NCBI GenBank assembly: GCA_017437785.1
Contig: JAFRXH010000041.1
Location: 1-64,000 of the forward strand
Direction: 5' to 3'
From: Lachnospiraceae bacterium
Lineage (GTDB): Bacteria > Bacillota > Clostridia > Lachnospirales > Lachnospiraceae
Length of the DNA: 64,000 nt
In this document: piece by piece, positions 10,894 through 32,753 of the stretch
Position numbering within the stretch: position 1 is the first letter of the stretch
Layout of the letters: each line of letters opens with the position of its first letter
Notes under the pieces: model-generated
Seen by the model: the letters and a program-made list of their open reading frames with translations, nothing else
Databases searched by the model: none
Told to the model about the DNA's origin: nothing
Made by a program: the position numbers and the translations under genes

Positions 10894-11889
10894 CTACAGT
10901 TTTAAGATAGCATCTGCAATACGTTCGGATCCTCTGCCGTCTACCAGGCTGCGTGCGTTGGCGCTTAAGCGGCTGCGCTTTGCAGTATCGGGCAGGATGG
11001 AGAATAAGCGTGCGGCAAGATTCCTGGCCAGTGCAGTGTCTTTTCTGGCATCGCCCACATAGCATATAGCTTCACGATCGTGAAAACTCTTTGTAAATTC
11101 AACCTGGTTATCAGCCATTGTGAAGGCGATCGTGGGCACGCCTGTAGCACACAGTTCGTAGAGAGTGGTGCCGCCTGCGGTGATAGCTATATCGCAGCTT
11201 CCCATCAGTGCTGCCATATCCGTTACCCCTTCGTTGAGTGCGATACCGGGGTAGCGTCTTGCCAGCAGCTTAAGGGCAGTCTTGTATTTTTCATCATATA
11301 AAGCACCCATCACCACATCGCAGTGAAGTATGGATAAAGCTGTCAGATGTTTATCTGTATAAAATTCCTTTAAGAGTTTTTCTATTATATGATAAGGATC
11401 GGTCCCGCCGGTGGATATGAATATCCTGTTGGCGGAAGGCCTTGTCATAAAGCTGCAGCCTGCAAACTGCTCGCGCAGAGGTGCATACTGTGTACCTAAA
11501 AGCTTTGTGGCTGCATGATGATACAGCCCTGTGGGCGGTGCGGGATCATAGTTTATTATCAGATCCGTATCGGGATCAAACCTGCACAGATCATCGATAT
11601 AAGCGGTTTTTTCGGCGTAGTTCCTGAAGGCAGGAAAGTCTTTTTCTTCGATCGAATACGAGTCCAATAAAAGTAACTCGTATTTATCCGAAGGCGCGTC
11701 CATGATATAGGAGAAGGCGTTTTCGCTGCCTGAAAACTGCTTTAGTATCGCGGGACTTTCCCTGTCGGTGAACCAGAACGATACCACGGCGCCGCGCTTT
11801 TTTAAGGCTTCGGCGATGCTTAAGCATCTGCGTATGTGGCCGCTTGCTATGTCTTTGTTTCCGTCTGCTTTGATCAGGATATTTTTCAT
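10894..11889 (-). CDS. pseG: UDP-2,4-diacetamido-2,4,6-trideoxy-beta-L-altropyranose hydrolase (PseG family)
   Basis: PseG removes UDP from the 2,4-diacetamido sugar, giving the free sugar that the neighbouring synthase condenses with phosphoenolpyruvate. The sequence shows the GT-B type fold: the N-terminal GHIRRCLSIA motif with His18, the residue equivalent to the catalytic His of PseG, DDLCRFDPDTDLIINYD, and the C-terminal nucleotide-binding motif ITAGGTTLYELCATGVPTI. Its 331 residues are slightly above the usual length. It is the last gene of the operon and shares one base with the stop of the synthase gene (TAATG). PseB, PseC and PseH, which make the precursor, are not in the window. Confidence 0.85.
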   Translation of the reverse strand: MKNILIKADGNKDIASGHIRRCLSIAEALKKRGAVVSFWFTDRESPAILKQFSGSENAFSYIMDAPSDKYELLLLDSYSIEEKDFPAFRNYAEKTAYIDDLCRFDPDTDLIINYDPAPPTGLYHHAATKLLGTQYAPLREQFAGCSFMTRPSANRIFISTGGTDPYHIIEKLLKEFYTDKHLTALSILHCDVVMGALYDEKYKTALKLLARRYPGIALNEGVTDMAALMGSCDIAITAGGTTLYELCATGVPTIAFTMADNQVEFTKSFHDREAICYVGDARKDTALARNLAARLFSILPDTAKRSRLSANARSLVDGRGSERIADAILKL

Positions 11890-12956
11890 TATTCAAAATC
11901 TCCTTTTCTTAATGGTTCACCGCGCTCCAGATCCTTAACGGCATGCCTGCCCAGGACGGTTGCTATCTCTGCGGGAGGCAGTCCGTTACCGGGACGGATG
12001 GAGCGTATGTTTTGACTTGTCAGTTCTTCGCCCTTTTTGATATCGGCTACTATAAACAACGATCTGGCACCTTCGCGCTCGGTCTCCTGCACAGGGGTGA
12101 GCGCATACTCGCTGCTGCCCAGTGCTTTTTCCATTATGCGTACATTTCTTACCATCTCGGCGAATTCCGCCGGCTCCATCGAGAATGCTCCGTCAGGACC
12201 GCCATCTGCGCGTGAGAGAGTAAGGTGCTTTTCGATCATGCATGCACCCAGGGCCACGGCGCCTACGGGGACGGTACTTCCCATTGAGTGGTCGGAAAGA
12301 CCGGTAAGGCATTTATAGGTCTCACCCAGTGTGGGTATCATGCGCAGGTTGATATCTTCATAAGGTGTGGGATATGCAGAAACACATTTTAAGAGTATCA
12401 CCTGTTCATTACCTTCCGCGCGGCATGCCGAAAGTGCCGCGTCTATGTCTTCGCTGCGCGCTACGCCGGTTGCTATTATAACCGGTTTCCCGGTTGCGGC
12501 ACACAGGCGTATCAGAGGGATGTCTGTTATCTCGTAAGAAGCTATCTTATACGCCGGCATGTTCATCTCTTCCATAAAGTCTACGGCAGTAGGATCGAAA
12601 GGAGATGAGAAGCAGTCAAGCCCAAGCGCTTTAGCTTCCTCACACAGCTTAGGCTGCCAGTCCCATGGAGTATATGCTTCGCGGTAAAGCTTATGCAGTG
12701 TGGTACCGTCCCATATGGTACCGCCGCTTATCTGAAAGTACGGTTTATCACTCTCAATGGTTATGGTATCTGCAGTATATGTCTGCAGCTTTATCGCATC
12801 GGCACCTGCTTCTTTTGCGGCATGCAGGATACGCACTGCCCTGTCATAATCCTGCAGGTGGTTTGCGCTCATTTCCGCTACTATATATACGGGATGCCCT
12901 TTTCCTATCTGATGGGAACCGATCTGTATCTGTCCCATAAATTTCTCTGTTTCCAT
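11889..12956 (-). CDS. pseI: Pseudaminic acid synthase (PseI, NeuB family)
   Basis: Condenses a 2,4-diacetamido-6-deoxy hexose with phosphoenolpyruvate to a nine-carbon nonulosonic acid in the cytoplasm. The NeuB barrel is seen: PVYIVAEMSANHLQDYDRA, GADAIKLQTYTADTIT, SSPFDPTAVDFMEEM, and LSDHSMGSTVPVGAVALGA. WDGTTLHKLYREAYTPWDW near residue 85 is the form I associate with PseI rather than sialic acid (NeuB) or legionaminic acid (LegI) synthases. A C-terminal SAF domain (about 295-350, ITSQNIRSIRPGNGL-like) completes it. The gene is joined at both ends by TAATG overlaps, so translation is coupled to the upstream fusion gene and to pseG. Confidence 0.87.
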   Translation of the reverse strand: METEKFMGQIQIGSHQIGKGHPVYIVAEMSANHLQDYDRAVRILHAAKEAGADAIKLQTYTADTITIESDKPYFQISGGTIWDGTTLHKLYREAYTPWDWQPKLCEEAKALGLDCFSSPFDPTAVDFMEEMNMPAYKIASYEITDIPLIRLCAATGKPVIIATGVARSEDIDAALSACRAEGNEQVILLKCVSAYPTPYEDINLRMIPTLGETYKCLTGLSDHSMGSTVPVGAVALGACMIEKHLTLSRADGGPDGAFSMEPAEFAEMVRNVRIMEKALGSSEYALTPVQETEREGARSLFIVADIKKGEELTSQNIRSIRPGNGLPPAEIATVLGRHAVKDLERGEPLRKGDFE

Positions 12957-14854
12957 TATTCCACTCCGTAGCCCTGAAGGTAATCTTCATTAGTCCAGGG
13001 CCTTCTGGCAGTAAAGAGACTGCCGTCGTTTTTCTTTATATATACTGCCGGGAAATACCTTATAAACAGCGGTGACAAGCATAAAGTGTAACCGCCTGCA
13101 TTGGTGTATACCACACGGTCTCCCGGTCTTAGTTCTTTTTCGTTTTCTATTGTAAAAAGTCTGTCATATTCCATACAGCTGTGACCGCATATGGTCTGCG
13201 TGTTGATAACGGCACGTCCGTCATCCGAATACTCCAGGCGGTGCGGATACCATCTGCGTGTTATCTGCGGATTAAGATACAGACGGCTGCCGTCGGTGAC
13301 TATGTAGTTATTATCACGTATGGACTTTACATCCAGTACCGAACTTACAAAGTCAAAGGCCGATGATATAAGCGATACTCCGGGCTCGACTATCAGGGCG
13401 GTCTTTGCGGGATCAAAGCCTTTCTTTAATTCCCCGGCGATAGCGGGCATATAATCGGAGTAATCGGGCTTGTCTTTAAGTCCGCCGTAATAACCGCCGC
13501 CCATATCGACATAGCTTAAGTTAAGTTTAAATTCATCTGCTATAAGAACGGCTGTCTTAGCCAGCGCCCTGTATGCATTTACGGAGCGTGACCTGGTTGA
13601 AGAGTGCAGATGAAGCCCTGCGATGTTAACATTTTTAAGATCCTTTAATGCGCTTATCACCCTCTTAAGCTCACCGTTTTCATAGCAGTAACCGAAACGG
13701 CTGCCCTCATCATCCGCAAGCACTTCATCCGGTACCAGACTTGAGAGATCGTAGTTTACCCTTATGCCGATATTGACAGAGGGTAATTTATCGGACAGTT
13801 CTTTAAGCCATTTTTCCTCATCGGATGAATCGATATTTACTATGCCGCCGTCACGGAGTACTTTTTCAAATACATCCCTGTCCTTGATGGGACCGTTATA
13901 TATCACTTTGGCAGCGTCAAAGCCAAGCTTCATGGCAAGCTCATATTCTTCCGCGGAGACCACTTCGGCGTAGAAGCCGTTGTCCCTTAACTTGCATAAC
14001 AGCCAGGGAAGGGCGTTGGTCTTTACTGAATAGGAGCGTATGTTATTGCTCCAGGCCGTATCCAGGGAATCCTTAAGCAGCTTTATATCCTTATCAAGGG
14101 CGCTTTCGTCCACACGGTAATAAGGCGTCTTTAATGCATGATCGTCAAAGATCACGGTATCCTTATTAAGTGATCTGTCGCGCAGGGAAAGATATTTGCG
14201 TTCCGCTATGCGCCAGTCTTCGAAAGTATCGATATCCTGTACTTCATCGTCGTTAAATATGAGAGGTATCATATCGTCGGTGTCCGTGCAGTTTTCACGG
14301 AGAAAAGCGTCCGTTCGGCATGCATAGAACTGCCCTGCGTCATGATACAGCTTCTTAAGATCCTGCGAACGCGTAAAGGCATATTCGGGATGCGCGCGCA
14401 CAAGTACATCGTTTTCGATGATGAAGCCGCGCTGCGGCGGATATGAGAACTGACATACCGGGCAGACGGATTCATGTGCGTTAAGCATATCCATCGCTTC
14501 CTTAAGACGCGCCGGAGTTATAAAAGGCGCGGTGGGGTATATGCAGCAGAAGCGGTCGAATGTGATGTCGCTTTCACGATAGCAGGAGAGGACTTCTGCT
14601 ATAACAGCGTCCGTACCGGCATGGTCGTTAGAAGTATCTTCCGATCTGAAAAAGGGAACGGATGCACCTGCATCTGCAGCGATACGGGCTATCTCCTTAT
14701 CATCGGTCGATACCATTACTTCATCGAAAGCGCCGCTTTTTAAGGCTGCTTCGATCGAGTAGATTATTATCGGTCTGCCGCAGAATTCTTTTATGTTCTT
14801 GCGCGGGATGCGTTTGCTGCCCCCGCGGGCCGTTATTATTGCCAGGCTTTTCAT
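12956..14854 (-). CDS. Fusion: CMP-nonulosonate cytidylyltransferase (PseF/NeuA) + fold-III PLP decarboxylase
   Basis: Residues 1 to about 230 are a complete CMP-sugar synthetase: AIITARGGSKRIPRKNI at the N-terminus, GRPIIIYSIEAAL, IYPTAPFITPARLKEAM, and YHDAGQFYA as in PseF. From about 240 to 632 follows an alanine-racemase-fold PLP enzyme of the diaminopimelate/ornithine decarboxylase type: SYSVKTNA with the PLP lysine at 278, GLHLHSSTRS, the phosphate-binding GGGYYGG, VEPGVSL, and GHSCMEYDRL with Cys560 and Asp564 matching the catalytic Cys and substrate-binding Asp. All key residues are present, so both halves look active. The fused decarboxylase is unexpected in a nonulosonate pathway; its amino-acid substrate is unknown. 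The reading frame runs through without a break and the linker is short. Confidence 0.85.
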   Translation of the reverse strand: MKSLAIITARGGSKRIPRKNIKEFCGRPIIIYSIEAALKSGAFDEVMVSTDDKEIARIAADAGASVPFFRSEDTSNDHAGTDAVIAEVLSCYRESDITFDRFCCIYPTAPFITPARLKEAMDMLNAHESVCPVCQFSYPPQRGFIIENDVLVRAHPEYAFTRSQDLKKLYHDAGQFYACRTDAFLRENCTDTDDMIPLIFNDDEVQDIDTFEDWRIAERKYLSLRDRSLNKDTVIFDDHALKTPYYRVDESALDKDIKLLKDSLDTAWSNNIRSYSVKTNALPWLLCKLRDNGFYAEVVSAEEYELAMKLGFDAAKVIYNGPIKDRDVFEKVLRDGGIVNIDSSDEEKWLKELSDKLPSVNIGIRVNYDLSSLVPDEVLADDEGSRFGYCYENGELKRVISALKDLKNVNIAGLHLHSSTRSRSVNAYRALAKTAVLIADEFKLNLSYVDMGGGYYGGLKDKPDYSDYMPAIAGELKKGFDPAKTALIVEPGVSLISSAFDFVSSVLDVKSIRDNNYIVTDGSRLYLNPQITRRWYPHRLEYSDDGRAVINTQTICGHSCMEYDRLFTIENEKELRPGDRVVYTNAGGYTLCLSPLFIRYFPAVYIKKNDGSLFTARRPWTNEDYLQGYGVE

Positions 14855-16020
14855 CGTGCCACCTCAAATTCGGCCTTTAAAGCCTTAGTGTATCTTACCA
14901 GTTCATCCCTGTCAGGTGCCTTAAGGATGTAATAGCCACGTCCCATCAGTGAATGGCCGTCCGTTACTCCGCAAAGCTCATCGCCGGTTTTGATATTGCA
15001 GCAGTAGCTTAACAGAGGATACTTTGATCTGAGCATTTCTTCGGAAGGAACCGATATGACCTTACCTTCCATGTCAAAGTAGGCTATAGCCATGGGGACC
15101 GTGACCGGTCCGGCAGAGCGGTAGCCGGCGCCCATAGAGTATTTTATAAAGCAGGCCACTTCATCTTCACCGCTTGCCAGGGGAGTAAACAGATTATGCA
15201 GGTTATGTCCCGAAGGCCTTGGAGACAGCTCTATGATGAAAGGCTCATCGCCGGAGGCCCTTATGATATCGGCATGCATCACGCAGTCTTTTAAGCCGAG
15301 GGCTTCACCTGCGGACTGCAGCATCGTAACGGTATGTTCTTTAAAAGCGCCGGCTTCGGGTACCGAATAATAGGCTACGCACTGGCGGTAGGGCGGCGGA
15401 GTGATATCCTTTTTGCGAAGGAGTATCAGACGGAAGCGCCCGTTTAAGAAGATCCCGTCCACACCGTATTCATCGCCGGGGACGCAGCTTTCTATTACAT
15501 AGTCCTCATCGTAAGGGGCGTGTGCCATAAAGCCGTCCTTAAAAGAGGCGGCATCGGAAAATATCTCAACGCCGCGGCTTCCCGAGCCGTAGCGGGGTTT
15601 TGCCACCAGCGGGAAAGCCTTATCTGAGACGTCAAATGAGGTATCTCCGGCCTTGAGCAGGTAAAGGTTTATATTCCTTAAGCCCTTATCTGCCAGTGCC
15701 TTATGAAAGGCATATTTGTCGGTGCACAGATCTGCCGATGTGTAGCTTACGCCTTTAAGTCCGTAGCGGTCGTTCATCGCTCCTGTGGTTATCAGATAGC
15801 GCCCGATAGGGACGGGCAGTATCATATCCGGCTTTATGCGGTCGAGTACGGACGCAACAGCCTCATTATCTCTTATGTCGGTCACATAGGATTCGTCGGC
15901 TGCCTTAAGCCCGGGGGCGTTTTCATTGCCGTCTAAAGCCACCACATAAAGGCCGGCTTCCTGTGCTTTTTTGATCGCGTATATTGATTCGGAGCTGGCT
16001 CCTATAACTGCAGCATTCAT
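14851..16020 (-). CDS. ATP-grasp ligase of the nonulosonate operon
   Basis: First gene of the four-gene operon. It has a Rossmann-like pre-ATP-grasp domain (AAVIGASSESIYAIKKAQEAG at the N-terminus, about 1-110). The ATP-grasp domain follows, with FPLVAKPRYGSGSRGVEIF, EYGVDGIFLNGRF and the metal-binding end MHADIIRASGDEPFIIELSPRPSG. Such enzymes join a carboxylate to an amine or thiol through an acyl phosphate. Size (389 residues) and architecture resemble carbamoyl-phosphate-synthase-like / PylC-type ligases. In this operon I infer ligation of an amino acid or its decarboxylation product to the sugar. The ATG overlaps nothing upstream, lies only 7 nt after a TATAAT and has no ribosome binding site; it overlaps the fusion gene by 4 bp. 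Confidence 0.8.
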   Translation of the reverse strand: MNAAVIGASSESIYAIKKAQEAGLYVVALDGNENAPGLKAADESYVTDIRDNEAVASVLDRIKPDMILPVPIGRYLITTGAMNDRYGLKGVSYTSADLCTDKYAFHKALADKGLRNINLYLLKAGDTSFDVSDKAFPLVAKPRYGSGSRGVEIFSDAASFKDGFMAHAPYDEDYVIESCVPGDEYGVDGIFLNGRFRLILLRKKDITPPPYRQCVAYYSVPEAGAFKEHTVTMLQSAGEALGLKDCVMHADIIRASGDEPFIIELSPRPSGHNLHNLFTPLASGEDEVACFIKYSMGAGYRSAGPVTVPMAIAYFDMEGKVISVPSEEMLRSKYPLLSYCCNIKTGDELCGVTDGHSLMGRGYYILKAPDRDELVRYTKALKAEFEVAR

Positions 16021-16027
16021 AAGCAGG

Positions 16028-16033
16028 ATTATA
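16028..16033 (-). promoter_or_regulatory. -10 element of the nonulosonate operon, leaderless start
   Basis: On the minus strand a perfect TATAAT preceded by TGG (extended -10) ends 7 nt before the ATG at 16020. A weak TAGCGT lies 17 nt upstream as -35. The expected transcription start is at or within a base or two of the start codon, and there is no Shine-Dalgarno. Confidence 0.6.
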
Positions 16034-28511: not shown

Positions 28512-31478
28512 ATGAACATCAGTTTAGCCAATATCACCGACGAATCCATAAAAACAGCTCCCGCGCAGCCGCGCGAGCTGAGCGATACAAAAAAGGCGGA
28601 AGCGGCAAAGAACATGCCCGGCTACAGCCTTGATATAGGCAACAGCACTTCCGGTATCTTAAGTGATAAGAAAAAGGGTGTGGAAGAGCTGATAGAGGCG
28701 GGAAGCCCCGCCGATGCAAAGAATAACCGCGATATGATGATACTCATGTCCAATACCTTAAGCCCTGAAGCATACAAAGAGATGCAGAAAGAGGGCTTTG
28801 ATCCCGGAAAGTTAGATCCCGAAGATACCGTAAATATCGTTGATGAGATAAAGGCTACCATGGCTAAGAGCGGAGTGATGATAGCCGGATATAACGATGA
28901 TCTGAGCGCTGAGCAGCTCACTGCCATAACCGGCAGCGCAGCCTATGCGCAGGAGATAGCGCGCGCATTTGAAAGCTATGGCGTGAACCTTAACGAAGGC
29001 AACGTAAAGGAGGCGGCTAAGACCATAGAGCAGCTCACATCCATCGAAGGCTTGGATGCGGGAGCTAAGGCCTATATGGTGGAAAATGACCTTAGGCCCA
29101 CTGCGGATGCTCTTTATAAGGCAGCCCACAGCGGTTCTGCCGCGCGGGGCGGTGCGCAGGGGTATGTGAATACCGGCGGATATGTGGGAAAGACGGCGGC
29201 GGCTGATACGGCGGGACTAAAGCAGCTTGAGGGGCAGATGCAGAAGCTGATAGAGCGTGCCGGCGAAGAGGCAAATGAAGAAAACACCGCCATCGCCGGA
29301 GAGATGGTAAAGGAAGGCCTGCCGCTTACCGAAGAAAGCTTTCTTTTGATGAAGAAGCTTGACAGCCTTAAGCTGCCTATGAGCGTTAAGGATGCAGCCG
29401 ATAAAGCTGCCATGGCATTAGCCGATGGCATGCATCCGGCGGATTACGATATAAGCAGGGATAAGACCCTGTTAAAGGAAGCGGCAGAGCTTAGCGAAGC
29501 AGTGGAGAAGATGCCTGCACAGGCCGTAGACAGGGCAGTGGAAAAAGACCTGCCGCTTAATCTTAAGAATCTTTCGCGCTGCAGCGTATCGTCTGCGAGC
29601 ATAAGCATATCGATAAGCATGGAAGCCAGGAGTGTAACGGCCAGAAGGCAGCTCGAAGAGGTGCGCCTGTCCATGACGGTGCAGGTTAGCTATCATATGT
29701 TAAAGGCCGGCGTGAACGTTGATACGCTGGAACTCTCAGATCTGGTGGAGCAGCTTAAGAGTGCGGAGCAGGATATGCTCTGCAGCCGATACAACACAGC
29801 CGATCCCAAGCAGGCGCTGGAAAGAGCGGATATCTTTACGCAGGCGATGGACAGCTTCCGTCAGATCCCCGGCATGCCGGTATCGCTTCTGGGCGATATC
29901 TTAAACAGTGCCTCGGATACTTTTACGTCGCTTGAGAACTTTACGGCAGCGGGCAGTGCCCTTAAGCTTAAATACGAAGCAGCGTCTGTACGCTACGAGA
30001 CCATGCAGACGCAGGTGCGCTCCGACCTTGGCGATAATATCAAAAAAGCCTTTGTGCATTCGGAGAGCCTGCTGGCAGAGCTCGATATCGAGAGCACCGA
30101 GGAAAACCTGCGTGCCACACGCATACTGGGATATAACAGTATGGAGATAAGCATGACTAACATAGAGCGGGTAAAGGATGCCTGCGATATGGTGGACGGC
30201 ATAATGGAGCGCATGAGTCCCGAAAATACACTTCAGATGATACGTGACGGCCGCAACCCTCTTAAGATGAGCATGGAGGAGCTGGATAACTATCTTACCG
30301 GCACTGCAGGGAGCGGTGAGAGCTACAGCGAATTCCTGGTAAGGATGGAGCAGAAGAACCGCATAACCGCGGATGAGCGCGAAAGCTATATAGGCATATA
30401 CCGCATGTTAAATCAGGTAAAGAGCAGGGACGGAGCTGCCATCGGAAGCCTGCTTGAGCAGGACCGTGAGATAAGTTTCGAAAATCTCTTAAGCGCCGTG
30501 CGAAGCAGGAAGAGTGCCGGAATGGATGTGAGCGTGGACGACAGCCTTCAGGGCGTGGAAGGCAGTATGGGACGTGATATCGCATCGCAGATCGAGACCG
30601 CAATGTATAAGGCGACTAAGAATGATATGAGCGAAGCGGCATCAGTACCGCTCGAATTATACGGTGAGCTTCTGCAGAGCGGCCTGGCAACGGATGCGGA
30701 CGCACTGCTGGGAATAAAGGGCCTGCGTGAAAAACGCGGAGAGCTTTTTGATATAAGCAAAAGCGCGGCAGGAATGGCCCGCGGACGGCAGCATACCCTG
30801 CCCGACGGCCGCGTGGTGAGTGAGGATGCATCATCCGGCAGCAGCTCTGCCCTGGATCTGACAGAAGATATAGTAGAGGCATCGCTTGAGGATGCCTGCG
30901 ATGCGATACTTGATAAGTTCGATTCAAAGGATGATGCGCAGCAGGCATATTCGCACATGGCCGATGTGGCGCAGGATGCGCTGATAAGAGCAGCAACGGA
31001 TCCCGAGGGCACGATCGACCTTAAGGCGATAAGCAGTGCCATGAGGCAGCTGGGGACCGCCAGGGCACTCTCTGACGAAGAGAGTTACGAAGTGCCCATG
31101 AGCCTGCACGGAGAGCAGACGGCGGTGAGCGTAAGGATACGCCATGAAGAGGGCGTGAGGGGCCGCGTGGAGATCACCATGGAGAGCACTTTCTTCGGAA
31201 ATGTCCACGCGCTGTTTTCGCAGATGGAGCAGGGGCTTGATATATATGCGAACAGCGACAGTGCGCAGGGGCGCGATGCCATGGCAGGACTGGAGGATAC
31301 GCTGCGGGCGCGCTATGAGGAGGCCGGTATATCCGTATATGCCGTTAATTTTGCATATTCTTCACACTTTACCCTTAATAATCGCAGCCAAAAGGCCGAT
31401 GATAATATTGACGGTTTTGATACAGCCACTCTCTACCGCAGCGCAAAGATCTTTCTTAAGACACTGGGAGAGGCGTAA
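28512..31478 (+). CDS. DUF6240-like protein, candidate FliK-like flagellar protein
   Basis: A 988-residue soluble, helix-rich protein without signal peptide or membrane segment; AAGGAG precedes the ATG at 28512. Its composition (Ala, Glu, Met and Ser-rich, long amphipathic helices, no Trp that I could see) and its N-terminus (MNISLANITDES) recall DUF6240 proteins of Lachnospiraceae. The last about 150 residues include VPMSLHGEQTAVSVRIRHEE and GRVEITMESTFFGNVHALFS, which look like the C-terminal domain of flagellar hook-length proteins (FliK: L..L.PE.LG.VEV). The gene ends 66 bp before flagellin. I infer an export-substrate or hook-length role; the family as I know it is uncharacterised. Confidence 0.6.
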   Translation: MNISLANITDESIKTAPAQPRELSDTKKAEAAKNMPGYSLDIGNSTSGILSDKKKGVEELIEAGSPADAKNNRDMMILMSNTLSPEAYKEMQKEGFDPGKLDPEDTVNIVDEIKATMAKSGVMIAGYNDDLSAEQLTAITGSAAYAQEIARAFESYGVNLNEGNVKEAAKTIEQLTSIEGLDAGAKAYMVENDLRPTADALYKAAHSGSAARGGAQGYVNTGGYVGKTAAADTAGLKQLEGQMQKLIERAGEEANEENTAIAGEMVKEGLPLTEESFLLMKKLDSLKLPMSVKDAADKAAMALADGMHPADYDISRDKTLLKEAAELSEAVEKMPAQAVDRAVEKDLPLNLKNLSRCSVSSASISISISMEARSVTARRQLEEVRLSMTVQVSYHMLKAGVNVDTLELSDLVEQLKSAEQDMLCSRYNTADPKQALERADIFTQAMDSFRQIPGMPVSLLGDILNSASDTFTSLENFTAAGSALKLKYEAASVRYETMQTQVRSDLGDNIKKAFVHSESLLAELDIESTEENLRATRILGYNSMEISMTNIERVKDACDMVDGIMERMSPENTLQMIRDGRNPLKMSMEELDNYLTGTAGSGESYSEFLVRMEQKNRITADERESYIGIYRMLNQVKSRDGAAIGSLLEQDREISFENLLSAVRSRKSAGMDVSVDDSLQGVEGSMGRDIASQIETAMYKATKNDMSEAASVPLELYGELLQSGLATDADALLGIKGLREKRGELFDISKSAAGMARGRQHTLPDGRVVSEDASSGSSSALDLTEDIVEASLEDACDAILDKFDSKDDAQQAYSHMADVAQDALIRAATDPEGTIDLKAISSAMRQLGTARALSDEESYEVPMSLHGEQTAVSVRIRHEEGVRGRVEITMESTFFGNVHALFSQMEQGLDIYANSDSAQGRDAMAGLEDTLRARYEEAGISVYAVNFAYSSHFTLNNRSQKADDNIDGFDTATLYRSAKIFLKTLGEA

Positions 31479-31544: not shown

Positions 31545-32753
31545 ATGAGAATAAATTATAACGCATCCGCCGTTATCACAAATAAGTCGCTCAATGCGAA
31601 CGACAGTCTGTTAAGCCAGTCACTTCAGCGCTTATCCTCAGGCCTTAAGGTAAACAGGGCCCAGGATAACCCGGCGGGCCTGGCTATCGCTCATCGTATG
31701 GATTCCCAGATCAAGGGTCTTGATATAGCCAAGAGAAATTCAAATGACGGTATCTCCGTTATATCCACTGCAGAGGGCGCACTCTCCGAGATGTCCTCCA
31801 TACTGCAGCGTATGAACCAGCTGGCTGTACAGTCCGCTACCGGCACATATACGGATGAGGACCGTGAACTGATCAACCAGGAGGCACAGCAGCTTAAGAG
31901 CGAGCTTACGCGTATCGCTAAGGATACCGAGTTCAACGGCATGCCTCTTCTGGACGGCAGCTTTGATATGAAGGCCTATACCAGCAAGCCCGAGCAGGCA
32001 AAGGTGGATTTCTATTCGCAGGATGTGCCTGCCGGCAAGGATTACAAGGTTGATTTTTCGAAACTTTTTGCAAAGGATCCCGCAGATGCGGATGCCTTTA
32101 CCATTCCTTCCGTGGAAGCACCTAAGAAGCCTTCGGAGAGCGGCTACAAGGCTGATATCAACGAAAAGGGAGATAAGGTGACGCTCACCGGCCCCGGCGA
32201 TTTCAAGCTGGTCATCGGAATAGACGAAGATGTGATAAAGAACGCAAAGACACTTGCGGATAAGAAAACGGCTATCGCCGGCATAGGCACCATGGATATG
32301 GACATCACCGGTATAGGTGCGATGAAGATACAGGTGGGCGCCAACGAGGGGCAGGAGCTGGCAGTACAGATCCCCACCATTTCCCTTTACCGTATGGGGA
32401 TCGATGATCTGGATCTCTCCACCGTGGACGGCAAGCACTCCGATCCTGCGGATGAGAACAGCCCGCTGGTGGGCGGTGCCACCGCAGGCATAGATGCCAT
32501 CAAGGGCGCATTGGATTACATCAATGATGCACGCTCAAGACTTGGAGCTTACGAAAACAGACTGGAACACAATGTTACCAGCGTTGATATATCTTTCGAG
32601 AACATGACATCTTCTTACTCTCGCATCATGGACGTGGATATGGCAGAAGAGATGACACAGTACACCACCCAGCAGGTGCTGGTACAGGCCGGAACATCGA
32701 TGCTCTCACAGGCTAACGAGCGGCCGCAGACAGTACTGCAGCTATTGCAGTAA
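31545..32753 (+). CDS. Flagellin
   Basis: Subunit of the flagellar filament, exported by the flagellar type III system. The D0/D1 N-terminus MRINYNASAVITNKSLNAN, the segment LQRLSSGLKVNRAQDNPAGL and the C-terminus YTTQQVLVQAGTSMLSQANE are unmistakable. The 402 residues have a short variable middle (about 150-300), rich in Asp, Lys and Pro, that includes possible O-glycosylation Ser/Thr. The leader has a 12-bp palindrome ATTCCCGGGAAT (31524-31535) between two candidate ribosome binding sites (AAGGAG, TGGAG). A long RNA hairpin starts 2 nt after the stop. The sequence ends ...TVLQLLQ, close to the usual flagellin end. Confidence 0.93.
   Translation: MRINYNASAVITNKSLNANDSLLSQSLQRLSSGLKVNRAQDNPAGLAIAHRMDSQIKGLDIAKRNSNDGISVISTAEGALSEMSSILQRMNQLAVQSATGTYTDEDRELINQEAQQLKSELTRIAKDTEFNGMPLLDGSFDMKAYTSKPEQAKVDFYSQDVPAGKDYKVDFSKLFAKDPADADAFTIPSVEAPKKPSESGYKADINEKGDKVTLTGPGDFKLVIGIDEDVIKNAKTLADKKTAIAGIGTMDMDITGIGAMKIQVGANEGQELAVQIPTISLYRMGIDDLDLSTVDGKHSDPADENSPLVGGATAGIDAIKGALDYINDARSRLGAYENRLEHNVTSVDISFENMTSSYSRIMDVDMAEEMTQYTTQQVLVQAGTSMLSQANERPQTVLQLLQ

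Follow-up and report, generated by a model that had tools for sequence, protein, structure and literature searches.

Cytidine monophosphate (CMP)-activated pseudaminic acid (Pse) is canonically made by six enzymes, PseB-PseC-PseH-PseG-PseI-PseF. Here we describe a four-gene operon at positions 10894–16020 of a stretch of 64,000 nucleotides from a Lachnospiraceae bacterium (the window, meaning the whole stretch analysed; assembly GCA_017437785.1, contig JAFRXH010000041.1, positions 1 to 64,000), which resembles the canonical pathway in that PseF, PseI and PseG score over curated cut-offs and PseB is encoded elsewhere in the genome, but differs in having no PseH and in coding instead for an ATP-grasp protein and a decarboxylase domain (DEC) fused to PseF. 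From sequence comparison we think it on balance probable that the operon makes CMP-activated Pse with an amino-acid-derived acyl group at N7 in place of acetyl.

Parts of this arrangement have counterparts in described systems. In butirosin side-chain synthesis, the ATP-grasp ligase BtrJ loads glutamate. The alanine-racemase-fold decarboxylase BtrK of the same system converts the glutamate on the carrier protein BtrI to 4-aminobutanoate (GABA; PMC7857480), and is by analogy a precedent for the decarboxylation of an attached amino acid; but BtrK works on a carrier-bound substrate, its score with DEC is only 82 bits, and the gene overlaps leave no room for a carrier protein within the operon, the rest of the genome not having been searched for one. 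FigC/FslC and its kin (SbnH, AcsE, MccE) share a Cys-Met motif with DEC and include its top solved relative and the best non-PseF NCBIfam match of the fusion protein, but DEC is not an N-citrylornithine decarboxylase by the FslC/FigC model NF041039 (137.1 bits, cut-off 500), has other residues in the specificity helix, and lies among sugar genes. Nonulosonic acids (NulO) bearing an amino acid, as the proposed product would, include the legionaminic acids Leg5GluNMe7Ac of C. botulinum (PMC13317340) and Leg5Ac7AcAla of Vibrio vulnificus (PMC7371886); these are not pseudaminic acids, their amino acid is not decarboxylated, and the available text of these reports names no ATP-grasp/decarboxylase pair. 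Nor was such a pair found described in the portions of the literature examined, among them PMC3765264, PMC6388019, PMC8503589 and PMC11405602. The uridine diphosphate (UDP)-bacillosamine pathway (PglF-PglE-PglD-PglC) is similar in that relatives of DEC adjoin PglC-like genes, several of them with DegT and PglF-like genes; it differs in that DEC and a second type of ATP-grasp stand beside PglC where the acetyltransferase PglD is expected.

Organization of the operon

The operon is composed of four leftwards-transcribed open reading frames (14851–16020, 12956–14854, 11889–12956 and 10894–11889, all on the minus strand) that overlap by 4, 1 and 1 bp, and the gene identities given in the initial annotation are borne out by these frames and by profile scores over the cut-offs. 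The first (14851–16020) codes for an ATP-grasp carboxylate-amine ligase of 389 aa, matching Pfam ATP-grasp_4 with 47.1 bits (cut-off 27), as do all 32 of its aligned relatives at E 0.001; its nearest solved chains in profile comparison are 4dim, deposited as a phosphoribosylglycinamide synthetase, and then an L-amino acid ligase. The second (12956–14854) codes for a PseF-decarboxylase fusion of 632 aa, with profile matches for both halves: a CMP-pseudaminate synthetase (PseF) domain at residues 4–221 (14192–14845; TIGR03584, 270.8 bits, cut-off 205.7), and an alanine-racemase-fold decarboxylase domain dependent on pyridoxal phosphate (PLP), which is DEC, at about residues 240–627 (12974–14137; Pfam Orn_Arg_deC_N and Orn_DAP_Arg_deC). 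The third (11889–12956) is the pseudaminate synthase PseI (355 aa; TIGR03586, 473.7 bits, cut-off 340.25), and the fourth (10894–11889) the UDP-sugar hydrolase PseG (331 aa; TIGR03590, 167.9 bits, cut-off 153.55), in which a Pfam scan found no fused acetyltransferase domain. PseF, PseI and PseG thus each pass a curated NCBIfam cut-off for Pse biosynthesis.

The four genes had also been placed under one promoter. A weak candidate for an extended -10 box (TGG-TATAAT; hexamer TATAAT at 16028–16033, minus strand), picked by eye, sits 7 bases ahead of the ATP-grasp ATG; a consensus promoter scan did not list it and found promoters not in excess (7 found versus 8.8 expected). The overlaps of 1–4 bp are as described, and a single promoter for the operon is plausible.

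Conservation of the ATP-grasp and decarboxylase genes

The four-gene set is not a chance assembly, since it recurs in many relatives. We scanned 397 genomes of Lachnospiraceae with the fusion protein; the matches listed include PseF-DEC fusions, PseF and DEC as neighboring but distinct genes, and DEC genes apart from PseF. The stretches examined first comprise 20 around DEC matches and 59 around PseF matches (79 loci), leaving out seven of the listed DEC-type matches (G331:C217 at 54%, G391:C1 at 38% and five at 32–34%) and PseF matches below about 49%. An alignment search with DEC was then used to examine the best 80 of 297 relatives' loci in named genomes. At least one of PseF, PseI and PseG is present in 77 of these 80 loci; of the other three, L165 and L168 hold PseC and ATP-grasp, and L213 holds a PglC-like gene. 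A close ATP-grasp gene lies within the stretch in 62 of the 77 pse-bearing loci, and in all 15 remaining genomes one is found elsewhere, 44–50% identical to that of the window, a few being partial or in two pieces. PseF is fused to DEC in 21 of the 80, mostly in Butyrivibrio. Culture-collection strains with the operon include Butyrivibrio hungatei DSM 14810 (L143) and Eisenbergiella tayi DSM 26961 (L155). The initial annotation had regarded homologues that never co-occur with pse genes as a reason to abandon its proposal; a search across genomes for the same set, which it had called for, finds the opposite.

In a phylum-wide scan of 398 genomes, DEC is found at E 1e-60 or better in six: the genome of the window, G207, and four outside Lachnospiraceae. 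Within the 3–4 kb viewed around these four, a PglC-like gene is present in L223, L224 and L225, the context of L226 is ambiguous, and no pse gene of the PseF, PseI or PseG kind was seen. Within the genomes sampled, the NulO form of the DEC module looks mainly like a Lachnospiraceae trait.

PseH and its probable replacements

The occurrence of PseH was scored with a home-made model, built from five loci and with matches above 90 bits taken as strong, because the TIGR PseH model gives only 50.7 bits to the in-locus GNAT protein of L076. Among 60 pse loci there are 22 with an ATP-grasp gene near PseF or PseI, 14 with a strong PseH (including the five used to build the model), none with both, and 24 with neither (two-sided Fisher p 0.0009). 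The count omits 19 of the 79 loci, which hold fewer than two of PseF, PseI and PseG (14 chosen by DEC, including L057 and L058, and five chosen by PseF); L057 and L058 have ATP-grasp and no PseH. Restricted to the 54 loci chosen by PseF, the numbers are 16, 14, none and 24 (Fisher p 0.005), both p-values being generous as the loci are related to one another. No PseH-like protein above 50 bits by the home-made model was found in any of the 80 best DEC loci. L059 and L068 are complete for PseB, PseC (over cut-off), PseF, PseG and PseI, carry ATP-grasp and DEC, and have no PseH. The possibility of a PseH hidden as a fusion to PseG, as in Parabacteroides, was rejected, as none of 72 PseG frames in L134–L212 matched the home-made model. 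The initial annotation had supposed that PseH lies elsewhere in the genome; in DEC/ATP-grasp loci it seems from these comparisons to have been replaced rather than relocated. We propose that the ATP-grasp protein would take the place of PseH by acylating the UDP-sugar product of PseC, at its 4-amino group, with an amino acid.

Other candidate enzymes are found among the loci with neither gene. FkbH proteins make glyceryl groups in other pathways, and an FkbH-domain protein (TIGR01686, over cut-off) is present in four such loci (L085:9702-11366, L097:9722-11353, L104:14238-15872 and L131:9690-11330); these are candidates for the glyceroyl step of Pse, and with weak GNAT matches (31–39 bits) near the genes, FkbH may not act alone. 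Two further loci contain a protein with a formyltransferase domain (PF00551; L094:10699-11334 and L118:8112-8699), candidates for making N-formyl Pse. The PseH slot thus appears to be filled by one acylating enzyme or another, with such candidates in six of the 24 loci. The Pse of Tannerella bears a glyceroyl group (PMC6120980), for which the available text of that report says of T. forsythia that the candidate gene 'remains elusive'.

The phylogeny of PseI is divided in a similar manner. A tree of 71 PseI proteins has two clades (support 100/98), the first (24 rows) with 12 of the 13 PseH rows, eight rows scored 'none' and four ATP-grasp rows, and the second (47 rows) with all 24 DEC rows in the tree, eight ATP-grasp rows, 14 'none' rows and one PseH row; the tree includes only 17 of the best 80 DEC loci. 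Four of the 14 'none' rows in the second clade (L100, L103, L113 and L127) have the second ATP-grasp type. All DEC rows fall within one set of 28 (100/99) that includes four 'none' rows, one of which, L075, is from genome G037, where DEC and ATP-grasp lie on another contig (L058). The window PseI falls in a subclade of DEC/ATP-grasp loci. The split fits a different sugar reaching PseI in the two clades.

The decarboxylase domain

DEC carries both Pfam domains of the ornithine, diaminopimelate (DAP) and arginine decarboxylases, as well as the Schiff-base Lys and catalytic Cys of alanine-racemase-fold PLP decarboxylases; alignments of DECs show conservation of the catalytic Lys and Cys and of the HxH and GGG motifs. 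The best-scoring solved chain is the N-citrylornithine decarboxylase 7kh2, followed by DAP decarboxylases and BtrK. The catalytic Cys is followed by Met in all 17 aligned DECs and throughout 88 NulO-type rows, and by Ile in one (L213) of ten other DECs. This Cys-Met replaces the Asp that binds the side-chain amine in the ornithine, arginine and DAP decarboxylases. FigC, which acts on citryl-ornithine, likewise has Met in its catalytic loop, and is grouped with SbnH, AcsE, MccE and BtrK, whose substrates are attached amino acids, as well as with DAP decarboxylase and D-ODC (PMC7857480). Judged by the Cys-Met shared with FigC and the ranking of scores, DEC may likewise act on an amino acid bound to another group.

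Five alignment columns separate the 88 NulO-type DECs from the ten others, one of them resting on a single row. Two of the remaining four are in the specificity helix, with N298 and R303 (DEC domain numbering) in 88 of 88 NulO-type rows, and D and K in ten of ten others. The corresponding helix of FigC and SbnH contacts the distal end of the substrate (PMC7857480), and the difference fits a different sugar at the far end of the substrate in two pathways. The ten other rows comprise PglC-type loci together with L062, L063 and L065, where DEC is accompanied by ATP-grasp but PglC is not adjacent. In a tree, the NulO-type DECs form one set of 30 rows (support 100/99) nested among the others.

A second setting beside PglC-like genes

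Six stretches without pse genes (L061, L064, L066, L067, L069 and L071) have a PglC-like gene, an adjacent DEC and then an ATP-grasp gene of the second type. Just before these are a PglF-like gene and DegT in L064 and L066, DegT in L061 and L067, and a PglF-like gene in L069, the PglC and PglF labels being assigned from sequence by eye; no PglD-like gene was seen by eye in these stretches, in which no search with a PglD model was made. In L071 the PglC-like sugar-phosphate transferase is itself fused to DEC (694 aa; L071:7941-10025, minus strand) and adjoins the second-type ATP-grasp gene, a counterpart in another sugar pathway of the PseF-DEC fusion.

In this setting, too, a 4-amino group is expected on the sugar, which should lack the carboxylate of a nonulosonate. 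Since relatives of DEC adjoin or are fused to PglC without pse genes, DEC need not act on a nonulosonate carboxylate. Its fusion partners, PseF in one case and PglC in the other, suggest that it works on the finished sugar or close to it. DEC and the second ATP-grasp type occur without PglC in L062, L063 and L065, so the module is not bound to one setting. We note that the pair in L062 (L062:8001-10196) is isolated among housekeeping- and transport-like genes with no sugar genes seen, and that L067 has a gene for an EctB diaminobutyrate transaminase (L067:6086-7354; 569.9 bits, cut-off 552.2) inside its DegT-PglC-DEC-ATP-grasp locus.

Proposed pathway and alternatives

A PLP alpha-decarboxylase requires a free alpha-amino and a free alpha-carboxyl group. 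The amino acid must therefore either be attached through its side chain, as the second carboxylate of Asp or Glu would allow, or have lost its alpha-carboxylate before ligation. We infer the former. In the pathway we favor, PseB and PseC, encoded elsewhere, would make UDP-4-amino-4,6-dideoxy-L-AltNAc, and the ATP-grasp protein, acting in place of PseH, would activate an amino-acid carboxylate, most simply the side chain of Asp or Glu, and join it to the sugar 4-amino group (N7 of Pse). PseG would then strip UDP, PseI add pyruvate and PseF add CMP, after which the PseF-fused DEC would remove the free alpha-carboxylate of the attached amino acid to leave a beta-alanyl or 4-aminobutanoyl group with a positively charged tail; a GT52-type transferase would probably put the sugar on a surface glycan. 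The suggestion in the initial annotation that an amino acid is attached to the nonulosonate is strengthened in outline and sharpened by the conservation of ATP-grasp and DEC with pse genes and the replacement of PseH.

Several observations weigh against this pathway. Common descent could also give the two PseI clades, and the PseH clade includes four ATP-grasp rows; the two DEC groups told apart by the helix columns are also separate lineages. Some of the 24 loci with neither enzyme hold weaker GNAT proteins (31–44 bits, including those beside FkbH), among which divergent acetyltransferases may have been missed. When the limit is lowered to 25 bits, a GNAT (46 bits) appears in L108, one of the 22 loci with ATP-grasp; there is also a 23-bit GNAT near the DEC locus L194, and in Aureibacter an annotated acyltransferase lies two genes from the pse ATP-grasp gene. 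The EctB-like transaminase of L067 is not explained by the use of Asp or Glu. Within the genome of the window, no PseC over the cut-off was found in the assembly of 107 contigs (best 280.8 versus 423.5). Lastly, each of nine DEC genomes has matches to the PseH model (68.9–94.8 bits in eight, one over the cut-off, in G264), and such a PseH-like GNAT could act in trans.

The location of PseB, PseC and PseH elsewhere, as the initial annotation had it, is partly upheld. The gene for PseB (524.4 bits, cut-off 407.75) is found on a different contig, at C34:19981-20967. PseC is over the cut-off in all eight other DEC genomes searched, and an assembly gap is a likely reason for its absence here, because the assembly is in 107 contigs and the genome's own copies of two glycosyltransferases that usually accompany the cluster are isolated, with one unrelated-looking frame, on the 5-kb contig C61. 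PseH does not fit the expectation, with none over the cut-off in the operon or the assembly (best 69.7 to 70.1 bits versus 93.1). The contig with PseB includes a surface-glycan locus (C34:8858-22137; L011/L012) with PseB, a WecE-type transaminase and a PseH-like GNAT, and also codes for a protein of 634 aa in which acyltransferase and GtrA domains are combined.

The order of the two reactions could be reversed: DEC would convert Asp or Glu to a free omega-amino acid (beta-alanine or GABA), which the ATP-grasp protein would then ligate to the 4-amino group to give the same product. Where DEC would be, an acetylornithine/GABA-transaminase-like protein, scoring below family cut-offs, adjoins the pse ATP-grasp in L080 (L080:4356-5576) and L114 (L114:7689-8933), as if transaminase and decarboxylase both supply an omega-amino acid; these ATP-grasp proteins are 43–44% identical to that of the window, and transaminases of this class work on omega-amines, another hint that the acyl group is an omega-amino one. 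L080 also has a 589-aa frame (L080:7915-9684) with PseF and PseI matches within one protein. The specificity helix keeps a basic residue to which Asp or Glu could bind through the side-chain carboxylate; the free amino acids would suit it equally well. Fusion of DEC to PseF (21 of 80) and to PglC (L071), enzymes that handle the finished sugar, argues against this order, as does the action of the closest solved relative on a conjugate (PMC7857480), and prior decarboxylation appears rather unlikely.

We regard it as improbable that the cell makes ordinary Pse5Ac7Ac by means of a trans-acting PseH, with ATP-grasp and DEC modifying another position (e.g. N5 after deacetylation) or another sugar. 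The candidate is the GNAT at C34:11876-12346, which scores 69.7 bits to PseH and has similar proteins in seven of eight other DEC genomes, and Leg5GluNMe7Ac of C. botulinum, judged by its name, has its amino acid on N5 (PMC13317340). The C34 GNAT has a WecE-type DegT transaminase gene (641.9 bits, cut-off 434.85) as a neighbor at 1.8 kb, and in seven of nine DEC genomes the match lies 1.8–4.2 kb from a non-PseC DegT gene, so that it looks like the partner of its neighbor, and we judged it as such rather than as PseH. G137 (L057, a 7.7-kb contig), which has PseB, PseC, PseI, a cut PseF, ATP-grasp and DEC, is without such a GNAT (best 21.9 bits in a genome 81% complete), and the exclusion of strong PseH from ATP-grasp loci also counts against this reading.

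CMP transfer normally requires the C1 carboxylate, which is in conflict with a third scheme, in which the ATP-grasp protein activates a carboxylate on the sugar (nonulosonate C1, or that of a uronic acid) for coupling to a diamino acid through its side-chain amine, and DEC then leaves the sugar amide of a diamine, in the manner of FigA and FigC acting on citrate and ornithine. Among solved chains DEC is closest to FigC, the EctB-like protein of L067 keeps a diamine alive, and several PglC-type loci have by eye a downstream nucleotide-sugar-dehydrogenase-like gene, but the scheme also leaves the exclusion of strong PseH by ATP-grasp and the PseI split unexplained, and seems very unlikely. As to roles for DEC alone, LysA (124.4 bits versus 297.9 for TIGR01048, Cys-Met with no acidic residue beside Cys), a free-polyamine enzyme (scores under cut-offs, Cys-Met, conserved sugar-gene context) and action on the nonulosonate C1 carboxylate (relatives in stretches devoid of pse genes) were rejected.

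The acceptor of the sugar

The initial annotation had named flagellin, 15 kb away, as a plausible acceptor. A flagellin gene is indeed present at 31545–32753 (Flagellin_N and Flagellin_C), about 15.5 kb from the operon, directly downstream of a rightwards-transcribed gene for a DUF6240 protein of 988 aa (28512–31478). A role as acceptor is not favored: no match to the Maf-type model PF01973 was found in the genome of the window (in 14 control genomes it matches in archaea only), and other transferases could still act. The model does match within Lachnospiraceae, in L084, L103 and L114, and in L114:5322-13720 and L084:6624-16724 ATP-grasp, PseI, PseF, PseB, a PF01973 protein and flagellin are found together; DEC was not seen in these two flagellar Pse stretches. 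A Glyco_transf_52-like transferase is present in 67 of the 80 best DEC loci, and the genome of the window codes for one on C61 (58% identical). As this transferase is co-conserved and PF01973 has no match in the genome, a surface glycan is the likelier acceptor.

Implications for Lachnospiraceae

It is possible, and we suggest tentatively, that an ATP-grasp protein and a conjugate decarboxylase form a portable module that adds an omega-amino acyl group (beta-alanyl or GABA) to 4-amino sugars, which would have arisen beside PglC, been recruited once into Pse synthesis in Lachnospiraceae, and been fused in each setting to an enzyme of the finished sugar (PglC, PseF), yielding cationic, zwitterionic sialic-acid mimics; no description of such omega-aminoacyl mimics was found in the available text of the literature searched. 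For many nonulosonic acids with an unusual N-acyl group the genes responsible have yet to be named, and the N-acyl group may be readable from the gene in the PseH slot, with a GNAT predicting acetyl, a formyltransferase formyl, FkbH glyceroyl, ATP-grasp an amino acid, and ATP-grasp with DEC a decarboxylated amino acid. This is a testable code from which surface sugars could be predicted in Butyrivibrio, Eisenbergiella and other bacteria common in gut and rumen, and it provides candidate enzymes for making new sialic-acid mimics. Some gut and rumen Lachnospiraceae thus seem to make a sialic-acid-like sugar in which acetyl is swapped for an amino-acid piece that one enzyme attaches and another trims, possibly adding a positive charge to a sugar potentially recognized by host lectins and phages.

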